Assembly: GCA_030043435.1 (NCBI GenBank)
Contig: JASHXR010000096.1
Span: 1-18,891, forward strand
Origin: Microcaldota archaeon
GTDB lineage: Archaea > Micrarchaeota > Micrarchaeia > Micrarchaeales > CABMGC01
Length of the DNA stretch: 18,891 nucleotides
Reading direction: 5' to 3'
Below, piece after piece: positions 5,481-17,088 of the stretch. Position 1 is the first letter of the stretch, and every line of letters begins with the position of its first letter. A model generated the notes under the pieces. That model saw only the letters and a list, made by a program, of their open reading frames with translations. It made no database searches and was not told the DNA's origin. The position numbers and the translations under genes are program-made.

Positions 5481-5487
5481 CCCACAT

Positions 5488-5570
5488 GCTGGGTTCGCCT
5501 AGTGGTAGGGCGGCAGGTTGCTAACCTGTTTGGTCGCAAGACCTACACGAGTTCGATTCTCGTACCCAGC
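5488..5570 (+). tRNA. tRNA-Ser (GCU anticodon)
   Basis: An 83-nt tRNA reading AGC/AGU serine codons. The acceptor stem is GCTGGGT (5488-5494) with ACCCAGC (5564-5570), a perfect 7 bp. The anticodon arm is CAGG-TT-GCT-AA-CCTG. A long variable arm (TGGTC-GCAA-GACCT) confirms the class II, serine type. The T arm is ACGAG-TTCGATT-CTCGT. CCA is not encoded and no intron is seen. It begins 7 nt after the SRP RNA, so both are probably cut from one precursor. It also marks the left boundary of the AT-rich segment. Confidence 0.97.
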
Positions 5571-5642
5571 GTTTGCATAAAAGCATAGCCTTGGCTCGCT
5601 TGCCCTGTGGCATCTCGCCCATATAATAGATAACACGACGCA

Positions 5643-9213: not shown

Positions 9214-10098
9214 GTGACCACGGGTAAACGCGGTGTCCACTTGAATCCGTTAACAGGAGTTATGTTCGGCATAATAGCCATGCTCGGCTTTGGGCTACAG
9301 AACTTCTTCACCATAGGATTGGCAAGAAGGCTGGGAGGCTTCAGGTCTGGGACCTGGATCGAGATTCTGGTGCTGATAATAGTACTCTGTCTTGCCGTCT
9401 TCTTCTTCAGATATACGGCCATCACTCTCGAGGAGGTGTTGGCCATCGTAGCGGCAGGGTTCGCCTCAGCAGTGGCGATCTTTGCGCTGAACAAGGGGTT
9501 CCAGGCAGGGAATGCGTCGGTAGTCGTCACCATATCAGGTGCATGGGGGCTGGTGACCGCGCTGCTTGGCATCCTGCTTCTTGGGCAGGGAATAACTTAT
9601 ATCGAGGCTTTTGCGATAGGGCTAATAGTCATAGGCACGCTACTCGTCTCGTTAAACCTCAGGAGCCATATGCCCGGATCCAGGGCAGGGGGCCTGGGCG
9701 TGAACTATGCGCTCGTCTCGCTGCTTGGTTTTGGGGCGTTCTACTTTCTCCTTGACCTTGTGGTGAAGAGCATAGGCTGGTTCCCTGCCACGGTGCTCAT
9801 CCTTATCCCTGTAGTGCTCTTCCTGCTGCTTTTTGGCAGGCTGACGAAGAACAAGCTGGTGATACCGAGGCACGACCTCCCGATGTTCCTGTTTATAGCG
9901 TTACTGAACCTGGCCGGGTTCGTGGCTTATAATCTCGGGGTCAGCTACAGCTTCTCGATAGCGTTAGCGCCGATAACAGCCGCGAATCCGGTGATAGTGG
10001 TTCTTCTCGCATATATAGTCTTGAAGGAGAGGCTCGGGAGGAACCAGCTGGTAGGCATTGCGATGGTTTTAATAGGCTTGATATCATTATCGATATGA
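9214..10098 (+). CDS. EamA-type (DMT superfamily) membrane transporter
   Basis: A 294-residue, highly hydrophobic protein with about ten transmembrane helices in two repeated halves of five, as in EamA/DMT transporters. The first helix starts at GVMFGIIAMLGFGLQNFF. The second half begins near NYALVSLLGFGAFYFLL. The C-terminal half has the typical AAxPVIVVLLAYIVLKERLGRNQLVGIAMVLIG block (the last part reads ERLGRNQLVGIAMVLIG), and the first half the parallel SGAWGLVTALLGILLLGQ. Substrates in this family vary (amino acids, sugars, metabolites) and cannot be predicted. Start is uncertain: GTG 9214 is listed, but TTG 9241 (GGTG upstream, better placed after the TATA box at 9190) or ATG 9262 could be used. 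It heads an apparent operon with the Cys-rich peptide, a methyltransferase and an M16 peptidase. Confidence 0.85.
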   Translation: MTTGKRGVHLNPLTGVMFGIIAMLGFGLQNFFTIGLARRLGGFRSGTWIEILVLIIVLCLAVFFFRYTAITLEEVLAIVAAGFASAVAIFALNKGFQAGNASVVVTISGAWGLVTALLGILLLGQGITYIEAFAIGLIVIGTLLVSLNLRSHMPGSRAGGLGVNYALVSLLGFGAFYFLLDLVVKSIGWFPATVLILIPVVLFLLLFGRLTKNKLVIPRHDLPMFLFIALLNLAGFVAYNLGVSYSFSIALAPITAANPVIVVLLAYIVLKERLGRNQLVGIAMVLIGLISLSI

Positions 10099-10111
10099 GA
10101 CAGGAGATATT

Positions 10112-10261
10112 ATGGCCAACCAGGGAGCAGGCGGAGGATGCGAGTGCGGAGGGGGGTGCAGGTGCGGCTGCGCGACTGGATGCAGGTGCAAGGAGAACTG
10201 CTTCTGCGGATGCACGTGCGGAGAGAGGCGCAAGGAGAGGAACGGAGACCTCGCTTACTAA
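10112..10261 (+). CDS. 49-residue Cys-rich, metallothionein-like peptide
   Basis: A short ORF of 49 codons with 11 cysteines, at positions 10, 12, 16, 18, 20, 24, 26, 30, 32, 34 and 36. They form repeated C-x-C units (CxC, CxCxC, CxC, CxCxCxC) separated by short Gly/Arg/Lys turns, the pattern of metallothioneins, which bind Zn, Cu or Cd through Cys thiolates. There are no His residues and no signal peptide, and the tail is charged (ERRKERNGDLAY). It has a clear ribosome binding site (GGAG at 10103-10106), starts 13 bp after the EamA stop, and ends 12 bp before the methyltransferase start, so it is translated in an operon. Low-complexity Cys/Gly composition makes homology calls unreliable; I do not recognise an exact family. 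A role in metal storage or detoxification is inferred from composition and context. Confidence 0.8.
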   Translation: MANQGAGGGCECGGGCRCGCATGCRCKENCFCGCTCGERRKERNGDLAY

Positions 10262-10273
10262 GCGTGCGTACTG

Positions 10274-10969
10274 ATGGGAGACGATGCGGAGCTGTGGAAC
10301 AGGGAGTATTCGCGTGAAGGCATACCGTCCTCTTTCAGGACAAGGCCCTCTAGTCCGGTGGAAGGCCTCTTGCCGCTCTTGAAGAGGAGCAACGCAAGGA
10401 AGATAGTCGACATCGGCTGCGGAGCGGGAAGGAACTCGTTGTTCCTCGCCAGCAATGGATTTGAGCTCTACAGCATGGACTTTGCCAGCGACGCGGTAAA
10501 GAGGATGAGGCAGAGGGCGAGGTCCGATGGCCTGTCGAGGAAGCTGCATGCGATTTGTCAGGACGTTGGCACAAAATGGAAGCTCGGGACAGGCAGCCTC
10601 GACGCTGCAATAGACACGTTCTGCTATAAGCACCTGATAGGCAGGAAGGAGCAGGAGAGGTACAGGTCGGAGCTTGGGAGGGTGCTGAAGCCTGGCGGCA
10701 TATACCTGTTAAGCCTTGCCGACGTGAATGACTCGTACTATGGCGCCCTGCCAAAGAAGGAGCTCTACGGAAACATGGTGGTGAGAGACCCTGGAAATGG
10801 GATAAGGTCGGTCCTTTACTCGAAGAGAGAGGTCGAAACGGTTTTCTCAGGAAGGTTCAAATTAGTCGCGTACAAAAGGAAGGTGCAGAGCAATACCATG
10901 TACGGAAGGCGCTACAGACGCAGGGTCACCCATGTCTTCGTCTTCCGCAAGAGGGAGAAGAGCCAATGA
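10274..10969 (+). CDS. Class I SAM-dependent methyltransferase (TehB-like)
   Basis: A 231-residue Rossmann-fold methyltransferase. Motif I is VDIGCGAGRNSLFLA (45-59), the SAM-binding glycine loop. The acidic end of β2 is D69 in YSMDFASDAV. Motif post-I/II region includes GSLDAAIDTFCYKHL, and motif III is LKPGGIYLLSL. The GCGxGRNSLFLA form is shared with TehB and related enzymes that methylate metalloid or thiol substrates, but the same motif occurs in other small-molecule methyltransferases, so the substrate is open. The C-terminus is very basic (MYGRRYRRRVTHVFVFRKRE). It starts 12 bp after the Cys-rich peptide and overlaps the next gene by 4 bp (ATGA), so translational coupling is likely. 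A metal(loid)-related role is an inference from the neighbour. Confidence 0.88.
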   Translation: MGDDAELWNREYSREGIPSSFRTRPSSPVEGLLPLLKRSNARKIVDIGCGAGRNSLFLASNGFELYSMDFASDAVKRMRQRARSDGLSRKLHAICQDVGTKWKLGTGSLDAAIDTFCYKHLIGRKEQERYRSELGRVLKPGGIYLLSLADVNDSYYGALPKKELYGNMVVRDPGNGIRSVLYSKREVETVFSGRFKLVAYKRKVQSNTMYGRRYRRRVTHVFVFRKREKSQ

Positions 10970-14837: not shown

Positions 14838-16163
14838 CTACGACTCGCTGAGCAGGCATGATGGATTGCCCGACTGGTACCATGTAAGAGTTACGCTTCC
14901 TCCATTGCCCCCTGAGCCACAGGCGCCTGAGACTGCACCTCCTCCAGTCCCGCTGTCGCCGCCTGTGCCGCCGGTGCAAATACCATGCGATACACCATTA
15001 GCTCCGCTGCTCCCACCTGCTCCTGCGCCGCTTGCGCCGCCTGAGCCACCTCCGCCTCCTCCTCCGTACCCGCCGCCGCCGCCTCCGCCGCCGCCTGAGC
15101 CGCCTGAGATGGTGTTGCCGCCATAGCCTCCGTTGGCGCCTCCTGGAGAGTCGCCATTCCCATTGCCTTCGCCTGAGGCGCCGCCGCCTCCGCCGTAGCC
15201 CAAACCGCCTGACGCACCTGCATCATATCCCTCTGAGGCGCCTCCTGCGCCGCCGCTTGAGCACCCTGCGCCACCGCCGCCGGCGCCGTCTACAGTGTTG
15301 GCCCCCTCGCCCCCTGAAGCGCATTGCACCACAGTTGCCCCGTCCAATATCGCGGAGCTTCCTCCTCCGCCTGAGCCTCCGACATAGTAGCCGTTGCCTC
15401 CGCCGCCTCCGTAGTACCCGGATCCACCACCACCGCCGCCATAGTATCCCCCACCTGCGCCGCCTCCGCCTACGTACACTGTCAACGTGCTTCCTGCTGT
15501 AGCCATGAAGTTTCCTGTAGCTGAAGACCCACTTGAGCCTGCGAGGCCGTCGGTGCCACCGCCTCCGCCGCCGTAGAGGGTGTAACCGAAGGACATGGTG
15601 TTGGATATTGTGCCTGAGAAGTAGCTGATGATGGTGTTGGTGCATAAGGTCTCCGGCACTGTAGAGGTCTCAGTAGAGAGCGATATCGGAGCCCCTGTGG
15701 CAGTGGTCTCAAAGGAGCCGTATACAGTGGAGAGATAGCCTGTGAACGTGTTGGTGTAGCGCAGGTCGATACTTCCCTTGTAGACGGATCCTGCTGTGCC
15801 AGAGTATGCGCTGCCTGACTGGGTGTAGCACTGCACAGTGTAGGTCTGCGACGAGCCGGAGTTCTGCGGAGCCGACTCTAGGGTCTGGAACTTCGGCGTG
15901 GTGTTCTCGGTGCATGCGATGCCTGTCACGTTTATCTGGCTGGACGTAGACTGGAGTATGGTCACCGAGAGCACGCCGTTGGAGCCGAGGAAGTAGTCCT
16001 GGCACGAGAACGAGGCGCTGATGTCGCAGAACGAAGGAGTAGTGTTGAAGAATCCGAAGGTGTATAGCGCCACGAGCACGACCGCGAGGATGAGGACCAT
16101 CCACCCGTAGGTGGTGAGGTACTCCATCGCGCTCTGCGCCCTTGCGCCGCGGCCGGGTTGCAT
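14838..16163 (-). CDS. Pilin-like (class III signal peptide) protein with polyglycine domain
   Basis: A 441-residue secreted or surface protein. The N-terminus MQPGRGARAQSAMEYLTTYGW followed by VLILAVVLVALYTF is a class III signal peptide, cut by a prepilin peptidase probably after Ala9 to expose QSAMEYL, followed by a pilin-like hydrophobic helix. Residues ~45-190 are Ser/Thr/Asn-rich, with β-strand character and a few Cys. From about 195 to 425 the sequence is dominated by runs of Gly with Tyr, Ser and Ala, containing STLTVYVGGGGAGG and SSAILDG, and ending in GSVTLTWYQSG. This pattern matches glycine-rich domains of phage tail and surface adhesins that may form polyglycine-II bundles. The start at 16163 is chosen because a TATA box lies ~26 nt upstream and the signal peptide begins there; an extension to 16280 is possible but unsupported. 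The function is unknown; surface adhesion or filament tip is an inference. Confidence 0.85.
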   Translation of the reverse strand: MQPGRGARAQSAMEYLTTYGWMVLILAVVLVALYTFGFFNTTPSFCDISASFSCQDYFLGSNGVLSVTILQSTSSQINVTGIACTENTTPKFQTLESAPQNSGSSQTYTVQCYTQSGSAYSGTAGSVYKGSIDLRYTNTFTGYLSTVYGSFETTATGAPISLSTETSTVPETLCTNTIISYFSGTISNTMSFGYTLYGGGGGGTDGLAGSSGSSATGNFMATAGSTLTVYVGGGGAGGGYYGGGGGGSGYYGGGGGNGYYVGGSGGGGSSAILDGATVVQCASGGEGANTVDGAGGGGAGCSSGGAGGASEGYDAGASGGLGYGGGGGASGEGNGNGDSPGGANGGYGGNTISGGSGGGGGGGGGYGGGGGGGSGGASGAGAGGSSGANGVSHGICTGGTGGDSGTGGGAVSGACGSGGNGGSVTLTWYQSGNPSCLLSES

Positions 16164-16184
16164 GAGCGTATATATTACAGTATG

Positions 16185-16199
16185 TATTAAAAACCCGTC
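16185..16199 (-). promoter_or_regulatory. TATA box of the pilin-like gene, overlapping T-run terminator of the ribosomal operon
   Basis: On the minus strand GGGTTTTTAATA lies just after the S5 stop (16222) and ~26 nt before the ATG at 16163. The T run can end the ribosomal transcript, and TTTTTAATA serves as TATA box for the leaderless pilin-like mRNA. Confidence 0.5.
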
Positions 16200-16221
16200 G
16201 CGGACTGAGGCGTGCATGCGC

Positions 16222-17088
16222 CTATGCAGGTGCGTTGGCCGGAGCTGCCCCTGCCTCTGGAGCCGGAGCTCCGCCTTCATGCTCCCTCTTCGGCGCGCTG
16301 GTTGCGCCTGGCTGCGCAGCCTCTGCCTGACGTTGAGGAGCTTGATGCTGCTGCGCTTCGGAAGCCTCTGGCGCAGGCCTGGCAGGCTGATGTGGCGCTG
16401 CTGCAGGAGGAGGCAGAGGCACTGAGATGTGCATAGCCTCTATGTTCTTGAGCTCGTAGAGCCCTGCCAGCGCAGTATAGGTAGCGAGAGCCATGTTGTA
16501 GACGTCGCGGGTGCGGCCGCGCGAGAAGGTCCAGACGTCCTTGACCCCCGCGAGCTCGAGCACCACCCTGACCGTCTCCGACGCAACGATCCCTACGCCC
16601 CTTGGCGCTGGCTTGAGTATTATCTCGGAGCTCCCGCACTTGCCCCTTAACCTCAGCGGCAGGCTGTGCGGCGCCTTGCAGTCGCACTCCTGGGAGCCGC
16701 AGCCGAGGTTAACTGAGATCACGTGCTTCTTTGCATCGCGTATCCCTGTCTCGATGGCAGGCCGCGCCTCGACGTCCTTGCCGACCCCGAGGCCGATGTG
16801 CCCGTTCCTGTCGCCCACGGCAACAGTGGCCCTGAACTTCTGCTTCCTGTTGTTCTTGGTCATCCTCTGCACCGAGGCGATCTCGAGCACCTTGTCCTCT
16901 ATGCCGGGGAGGAGCGTCTCCACCACCTCCACCTCCTTTATGGGCTTGCCTGTGGAGAAGATCTGCTCTATCGAGGTTATCTGGCCAGCCCTGACCTGCT
17001 GGCCTATCTTCGTCTTCGGGTCCCATGTGGAGAGCTGTGACTCGTCCCTCTCGTACCTGCGCCCGTAGCCCCTGCGGTCATTGTCCAT
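16222..17088 (-). CDS. rps5: Ribosomal protein S5 (uS5) with Ala/Pro/Gln-rich C-terminal extension
   Basis: A 288-residue archaeal S5, a small-subunit protein of the mRNA entry site and translational fidelity. The core (1-225) has the N-terminal dsRBD-like part (IASVQRMTKNNRKQKFRATV, GHIGLGVGKD) and the archaeal Cys segment (GCGSQECDCKAPHSLPL, C130, C135, C137) followed by KPAPRGVGIVASE and WTFSRGRTR. After about residue 225 there is a 60-residue low-complexity tail of Ala, Pro, Gln and Glu (PPPAAAPHQPARPAPEAS... ending APANAPA), which archaeal S5 normally lacks. The gene overlaps the end of L18 by 11 bp. Usual neighbours L30 and L15 do not follow; the operon ends here. Confidence 0.96.
   Translation of the reverse strand: MDNDRRGYGRRYERDESQLSTWDPKTKIGQQVRAGQITSIEQIFSTGKPIKEVEVVETLLPGIEDKVLEIASVQRMTKNNRKQKFRATVAVGDRNGHIGLGVGKDVEARPAIETGIRDAKKHVISVNLGCGSQECDCKAPHSLPLRLRGKCGSSEIILKPAPRGVGIVASETVRVVLELAGVKDVWTFSRGRTRDVYNMALATYTALAGLYELKNIEAMHISVPLPPPAAAPHQPARPAPEASEAQQHQAPQRQAEAAQPGATSAPKREHEGGAPAPEAGAAPANAPA

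Follow-up and report, generated by a model that had tools for sequence, protein, structure and literature searches.

Results

A cysteine-dense gene in a tight run of genes

The window, by which we mean the whole 18,891-nucleotide stretch of DNA analysed, carries a short gene on the forward strand at positions 10112..10261, with an ATG start at 10112 and the stop codon at 10259-10261. Its 49 aa translation, MANQGAGGGCECGGGCRCGCATGCRCKENCFCGCTCGERRKERNGDLAY, holds 11 cysteines, at residues 10, 12, 16, 18, 20, 24, 26, 30, 32, 34 and 36; because all of them occupy even positions, only CxC and CxxxC spacings occur. A Shine-Dalgarno-like AGGAG site (10102..10106, + strand) stands 5 nt upstream of the ATG. 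Protein scans and neighbourhood comparison identified the flanking genes, on the same strand, as an EamA-family transporter (9214..10098, + strand), which ends 13 bp upstream, and a class I SAM methyltransferase (10274..10969, + strand), which starts after a 12 bp gap and is itself overlapped by 4 bp by the gene for an M16 peptidase. The original prediction had described a 49-residue, 11-cysteine ORF with a ribosome binding site, close spacing on both sides and an ordered C-x-C pattern between residues 10 and 36, and the locus is exactly as described.

Further features of the window include a partial CAP-domain protein (cysteine-rich secretory protein family) at its edge (2-916, + strand), a tRNA-Ser (GCT) gene (5487-5572, + strand) and, at 14838-16280 on the minus strand, a 480 aa protein with no Pfam match, in which a long glycine-rich domain follows an N-terminal segment, AQSAMEYLTTYGWMVLILAVVLVALY, that in our estimation resembles the N-terminus of an archaeal type IV pilin.

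Other open frames overlap the 10112..10261 region, and the conserved frame is that of the peptide. We made a census of Met-started frames in 426,344 bases, comprising the window and 40 stretches fetched around relatives of the peptide. Among the 3,415 frames examined, 37 had at least nine cysteines within 30 residues, and all 37 are members of the peptide family: 36 carry its CECGG motif and the last is a divergent relative (L075). The ORF is therefore not a chance occurrence. Three of the 41 stretches (L075, L078 and L079) were missed by the Cys-spacing search and were left out of the comparisons of neighbourhoods and codons, for which 38 loci were used. Matches of at least 5 nt to AGGAGGTGATCC, which we take to be the 16S tail and used for Shine-Dalgarno matching, were present at 8 of these 38 loci (2.8 expected), and matches of at least 4 nt at 23 (12.1 expected). 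The peptide is presumably translated. The start codon is ATG at 35 loci, TTG at L045, ATA at L054 (G240:C28) and GTG at L064, where an ATG lies three codons further upstream.

Conservation of the cysteine pattern and the N-terminus

The Cys pattern, whose persistence in related genomes had been proposed as a check on the prediction, is kept: all 11 cysteines are invariant among 31 aligned members. The full set of invariant positions is M1, N3, Q4, G7, C10, E11, C12, G13, G14, C16, C18, G19, C20, C24, C26, C30, C32, C34, C36 and R39, where M1 was entered as M for two of the members, which start with TTG or GTG. Alignment and codon comparison delineate a conserved N-terminal block, ANQGAGGGCECGG, spanning codons 2-14 (10115..10153, + strand). 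Non-synonymous difference is 0.096 over N3-G9 vs 0.19 over C10-C36, making the N-terminal block the more conserved of the two. The tail past residue 40 varies in length and charge; in many members an ERRKxR-type basic stretch directly follows the last cysteine, and in some the tail is acidic.

Across 36 distinct coding cores (two of the 38 rows were identical to others over the core and were collapsed), pooled pN/pS is 0.26 uncorrected, with 0.71 synonymous and 0.18 non-synonymous differences per site, a ratio biased downward because members were found by protein similarity, though synonymous sites are near saturation. The 10112..10261 ORF is thus a real gene, conserved and under purifying selection.

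Two divergent members retain the overall design with altered spacing, one with 11 cysteines (G185, locus L075) and one with 10 (G190, locus L113); with these included, the N-terminal block loses its invariance. One copy, L078 (G290:C3, 2363-2506, + strand), has an in-frame TAA within the Cys region and is either a decayed gene or an assembly error. Two assemblies hold two peptide genes each, clearly different from one another in G015 (L043 and L050) and on contigs resembling strain variants in G261 (L069 and L070).

An AlphaFold2 model of the window peptide has a mean pLDDT of 65.8 (low); its one helix begins at residue 36, and the part preceding that residue has no regular structure. Such low order is what one would expect of an apo-metallothionein, though it proves nothing.

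Relatives have so far been found in Micrarchaeota alone

With the window peptide as query, matches were obtained in 14 of 40 relatives and in 39 of 295 genomes of the class, its own genome included. Searched with a family profile, 41 of the 301 Micrarchaeota genomes, again counting that of the window, gave a match, and so did 29 of the 79 genomes of the window's own family. Two weak matches were rejected as members, G192 being a short fragment that ends in a stop and G145 a stretch with no family-like Cys-rich frame, so that 39 of 301 is the solid count. All profile matches among the 301 genomes of the phylum fall within one order, in two families (f1 and f2).

Archaea outside Micrarchaeota were reached with exact short patterns and through predicted proteins. 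The patterns, run against bacterial and archaeal species genomes (84,980 stated), found 571 stretches, seven of which encode a relative, and all seven come from records titled Candidatus Micrarchaeota, in line with the archaeal origin that had been predicted. Among viral contigs, 46 stretches matched a pattern and none encoded a relative; plasmids gave no relative, nor did PHROGs with 36 members as queries. A search of 5.8 billion predicted proteins returned eight matches, none with a named function and none from outside the Micrarchaeota family. The window peptide matched no Pfam family at E values up to 10 and no NCBIfam model. As these searches require shared short words or predicted genes, distant relatives elsewhere may be missed. 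The family is so far known from Micrarchaeota alone and is nearly unannotated: the eight database proteins compare with 41 genomes containing a match, so the suspicion that so small a gene would escape automated annotation was largely borne out.

Within f1, presence of the gene clusters by genus, with nine minority genomes vs 20 expected, a value reached in 0 of 2,000 shuffles. The gene is missing from all 12 genomes of genus g11, all eight of g3 and all six of g2, and is present in five of six in g4 and five of seven in g14. Mean completeness is similar in genomes with the gene (83.7) and without it (82.5), which together with the clustering suggests that its absence from those genera is probably real. 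The peptide gene is probably an accessory trait, kept or lacked genus by genus.

The peptide gene keeps no fixed neighbours

We compared the window with 37 other neighbourhoods, the resulting 38 being fewer than 38 independent cases since they include close relatives and variant contigs (for example L046/L059, L048/L077 and L068/L069). The methyltransferase gene is present only in the window and has no relative in the other 37. The M16 gene is found in two of the 38 and directly follows the peptide gene in one other genome (L076), while EamA relatives lie directly upstream of the peptide gene in L040 and L076, from the same genus, and are not family-wide. Elsewhere the neighbours encode a PheS-like synthetase, eRF1, isocitrate/isopropylmalate dehydrogenase, UbiA, a HerA-like protein, an amidohydrolase and others. 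These unrelated neighbours suggest that the peptide gene is an autonomous unit, and a conserved operon was rejected as an explanation of the gene run in the window. Conservation in relatives, as originally proposed, therefore applies to the ORF, matched in 41 of 301 genomes, and not to its position before the methyltransferase, seen in 1 of 38 neighbourhoods.

One setting recurs in three genomes, representing both families: a 2-oxoacid dehydrogenase operon in which the peptide gene has the E2 gene on one side and the E3 gene on the other (L063, 2426-2578, - strand; L066, 3834-3980, + strand; L067, 6848-6994, + strand). E3 also neighbours the peptide gene in L061, at a distance of 691 bp, and in L071, on the opposite strand. 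The E3 proteins of L063, L066 and L061 score over the dihydrolipoyl dehydrogenase cut-off and not over that of MerA. This recurrent placement could mark an ancestral site, or else reflect a functional link with lipoyl thiols.

Proteins encoded no more than two genes from the peptide and at least 90 aa long were reduced to 80 cluster representatives, and 76 of these were scanned, 18 singly and 64 as a group, with six in both sets; the large cluster c1 was among the four left out. No metal transporter or metal regulator was found among the 20 proteins scanned singly (the 18 plus two more from the window), three of which represent other genes of the window or paralogous clusters, and no metal-resistance family among the 25 listed of the 107 families matched by the 64 proteins of the group scan. 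The window methyltransferase matches the Pfam model of the tellurite resistance protein TehB (34.2 bits, cut-off 20.4); general methyltransferase models fit it better, and it falls far below the cut-offs of the NCBIfam TehB and ArsM models. This is the one possible exception among the neighbours scanned, in a gene that is not a conserved neighbour.

Metal handling in the window's family

Heavy-metal P1B-ATPases score over cut-off in 48 of the 79 genomes of the family, or 65 of 79 when weaker matches are counted; the window's own genome (70.59% complete) has a weak match only. The eight ATPases that we read (L106-L112 and L115) share the motif CPC and, in their N-terminal part, a DPVCGM/DPICGM...FCS..C stretch, which we take to be a YHS domain, and have no HMA domain. 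Two of them were scanned and scored above cut-off both with the copper model TIGR01511 (569 and 560 bits) and with the cadmium-subfamily model (398 and 393 bits). HMA is the usual domain of copper chaperones and copper ATPases, and it is present in 1 of the 79 family genomes vs 13 of 14 control genomes. CDF (cation-efflux) exporters are over cut-off in 4 of 79 vs 14 of 14 controls. SmtA-type metallothioneins (PF02069) are over cut-off in none of the 79, with one sub-cut-off match in a genome that lacks the peptide. A copper exporter operating in cells with few HMA chaperones would leave a niche that a Cu(I)-binding peptide could fill. Presence of the peptide and of the ATPase are not significantly associated (the ATPase is over cut-off in 21 of the 29 genomes that carry the peptide vs 27 of the 50 that lack it, p = 0.15), and the direction is positive.

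Discussion

A putative metallothionein-like metal binder

We consider it probable, from the features of the sequence, that 10112..10261 encodes a small, autonomous, cytosolic, metallothionein-like metal-binding peptide. Its 11 cysteines, in CxC/CxxxC spacing, would enclose a metal-thiolate cluster in which the metal is most likely Cu(I), so that the peptide could buffer or sequester a thiophilic metal and complement the copper-type P1B-ATPase in cells that mostly have no HMA-type copper chaperones. Metal binding, the thiolate cluster, a preference for Cu(I) and a role in metal tolerance are what we infer from this design. On copper as the main metal we would put roughly even chances; this choice draws on the Neurospora crassa metallothionein, Cup1 and CxC-rich proteins of Tremella and Cryptococcus, which are described as Cu-thioneins in the relevant section of a published study (PMC4755600).

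The N-terminal block would not be needed for chelation, and it counts against a plain metallothionein. Since it looks unlike part of a simple metal sponge, it suggests a partner, and the conserved M-x-NQG-x-G N-terminus together with Arg39 may serve a second role, such as partner docking or N-terminal processing. A more ambitious scheme would join all of these elements: a first archaeal metallothionein family, acting as a Cu(I) buffer that replaces HMA/CopZ-type chaperones in tiny host-dependent archaea, with the NQG arm delivering copper to the CPC-type ATPase at its YHS-like domain. As a whole we regard that scheme as rather unlikely.

Other explanations of the sequence differ mainly in what they make of the cysteines and the N-terminus. 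A Zn/Cd-type metallothionein or zinc reservoir in place of a copper one is a possibility that we rate as somewhat doubtful. It gains from the scarcity of CDF exporters and from the ATPases that also pass the cadmium-family cut-off, and the bacterial protein SmtA is said, in an excerpt on bacterial metallothioneins, to sequester Zn and Cd (PMC7558416); it has to contend with a Cys region that lacks histidine in 36 of 40 members, with CxC/CxxxC spacing in nearly all of them, and with the failure of all 79 genomes to reach the SmtA Pfam cut-off. It is improbable that the peptide is instead a small regulator or nucleic-acid binder, whose fold is shaped by a metal cluster and which would reach DNA, RNA or a protein partner through its basic ERRKxR tail or its NQG arm. 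Copper-fist regulators offer a precedent, and the conserved N-terminal block, Arg39 and the basic region found after the last cysteine in many members would fit; however, the tail past residue 40 is variable and in some members acidic, and the density of cysteines is far above that of a single zinc finger, with CxxC in just 1 of 40 members.

The gene run of the window might also suggest a Cys-rich RiPP precursor, with the methyltransferase, M16 peptidase and EamA transporter serving its maturation and export. M16 peptidases and methyltransferases do occur in RiPP clusters, the four genes form one tight run on the + strand, and the methyltransferase matches a RiPP methyltransferase model, although far below its cut-off (29 vs 175 bits). 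The neighbourhood comparison led us to reject this reading, as the putative modification genes are not conserved across the 38 loci (methyltransferase in one, M16 gene in two); in addition, a conserved Cys region followed by a variable tail differs from the usual leader-core layout, and we now see very little chance of a RiPP. A defensin- or conotoxin-like extracellular peptide held by disulfides is the most far-fetched of the candidates: a conotoxin was the sole match among PDB sequences at E values up to 10, at a non-significant E = 0.3, and both the odd number of cysteines and the lack of a hydrophobic signal segment speak against it.

Metallothioneins have been regarded as missing from archaea. 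A passage in a review of haloarchaeal metal resistance, citing another work, states that 'MTs are absent in archaea' (PMC3600143), a part of the report on Thermococcus gammatolerans notes that it encodes no metallothionein orthologue (PMC3407056), and the relevant portion of a study that reports genes for heavy-metal resistance in both Micrarchaeota and Parvarchaeota does not name metallothionein (PMC5864196). In the literature searched, which was mainly open-access so that an earlier report is possible, we found neither the term 'archaeal metallothionein' nor a co-mention of metallothionein with DPANN, and the excerpts in which metallothionein, archaea and Micrarchaeota occurred together concerned only smtB and a list of phyla. 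Set against the review's statement, the peptide family would be a new and directly testable one, mostly missed by annotation owing to its small size. A clade-restricted family with so strict a signature would bring archaea within the range of metallothioneins, or of the same design invented independently, and a defined peptide of this kind can be made and assayed directly.

Comparison with known metallothioneins

The metal-binding part of metallothioneins contains few or no aromatic residues, and among 40 members of the family the Cys region has none in 25, one in 13 and two in two. Small archaeal zinc-finger proteins of the CPxCG type use CxxC zinc knuckles, a spacing found in the single member mentioned above. 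The 40 members are 41-60 aa long (3.9-6.1 kDa) with 18.3-26.8% cysteine (11 of 49 residues in the window peptide); CxC is used throughout, CC occurs in none and the cysteines are all at one parity in 38. These values agree with the corresponding points of the definition set out in part of a metallothionein review, which asks for fewer than 100 aa, about 15-30% Cys, CC, CxC or CCC motifs, transition-metal binding and no enzymatic function (PMC9781358). The architecture is metallothionein-like, and the length of the sequence, its share of cysteines and its CxC units support the label first given to it.

The likeness is one of design. Homology to known metallothionein families was considered and rejected, since neither Pfam nor NCBIfam matched the peptide; Metallothio_5 was touched by 1 of 31 members at a non-significant E = 0.97. 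On present sequence comparisons the family lies outside every metallothionein sequence family tested. It shares with bacterial SmtA/BmtA (PF02069) the character of a small, Cys-rich prokaryotic metal binder of the cytosol, binding and location being predictions here, and differs in having no match to that Pfam family, no zinc-finger half and almost no histidine in the Cys region. Mycobacterial MymT, tied to copper, was likewise a short, formerly non-annotated Cys-rich ORF according to part of a published account (PMC7558416); we compared the two by description, and the profile of the present family picked up no outside relative in 5.8 billion proteins. The beta1 domain of mollusc metallothioneins, [CxC]x3[CxC]x3Cx5[CxC]x3[CxC] in the section of the review describing it (PMC9781358), also sets CxC units three residues apart, although it has nine cysteines in another spacing and belongs to a two-domain animal protein.

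Fungal sequences were scored with the family profile, with composition correction off, against 500 shuffles of each. Their own score was reached by 8 of 500 shuffles for the N. crassa metallothionein, 1 of 500 for Candida glabrata MT1 and 6 of 500 for Cup1; C. glabrata MT2 stood modestly above its shuffles (22 of 500) and Yarrowia lipolytica MT3 did no better than them (163 of 500). These scores reflect alike CxC spacing and are not evidence of common descent. The N. crassa pattern of fungal family 8, with seven cysteines as CxC-x5-CxC-x3-CxC-x2-C, differs from the 11-cysteine CxC-x3-CxCxC-x3-CxC-x3-CxCxCxC of the window peptide, with no demonstrable homology, and all five fungal sequences compared are without the NQG block of the Micrarchaeota family. 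In its general build the peptide is nevertheless like the fungal Cu-metallothioneins N. crassa MT (family 8), C. glabrata MT1 and Cup1, which are short and have their cysteines mostly in CxC units, and the CNCGSGCSC of N. crassa resembles the CECGGACMC of the window peptide.
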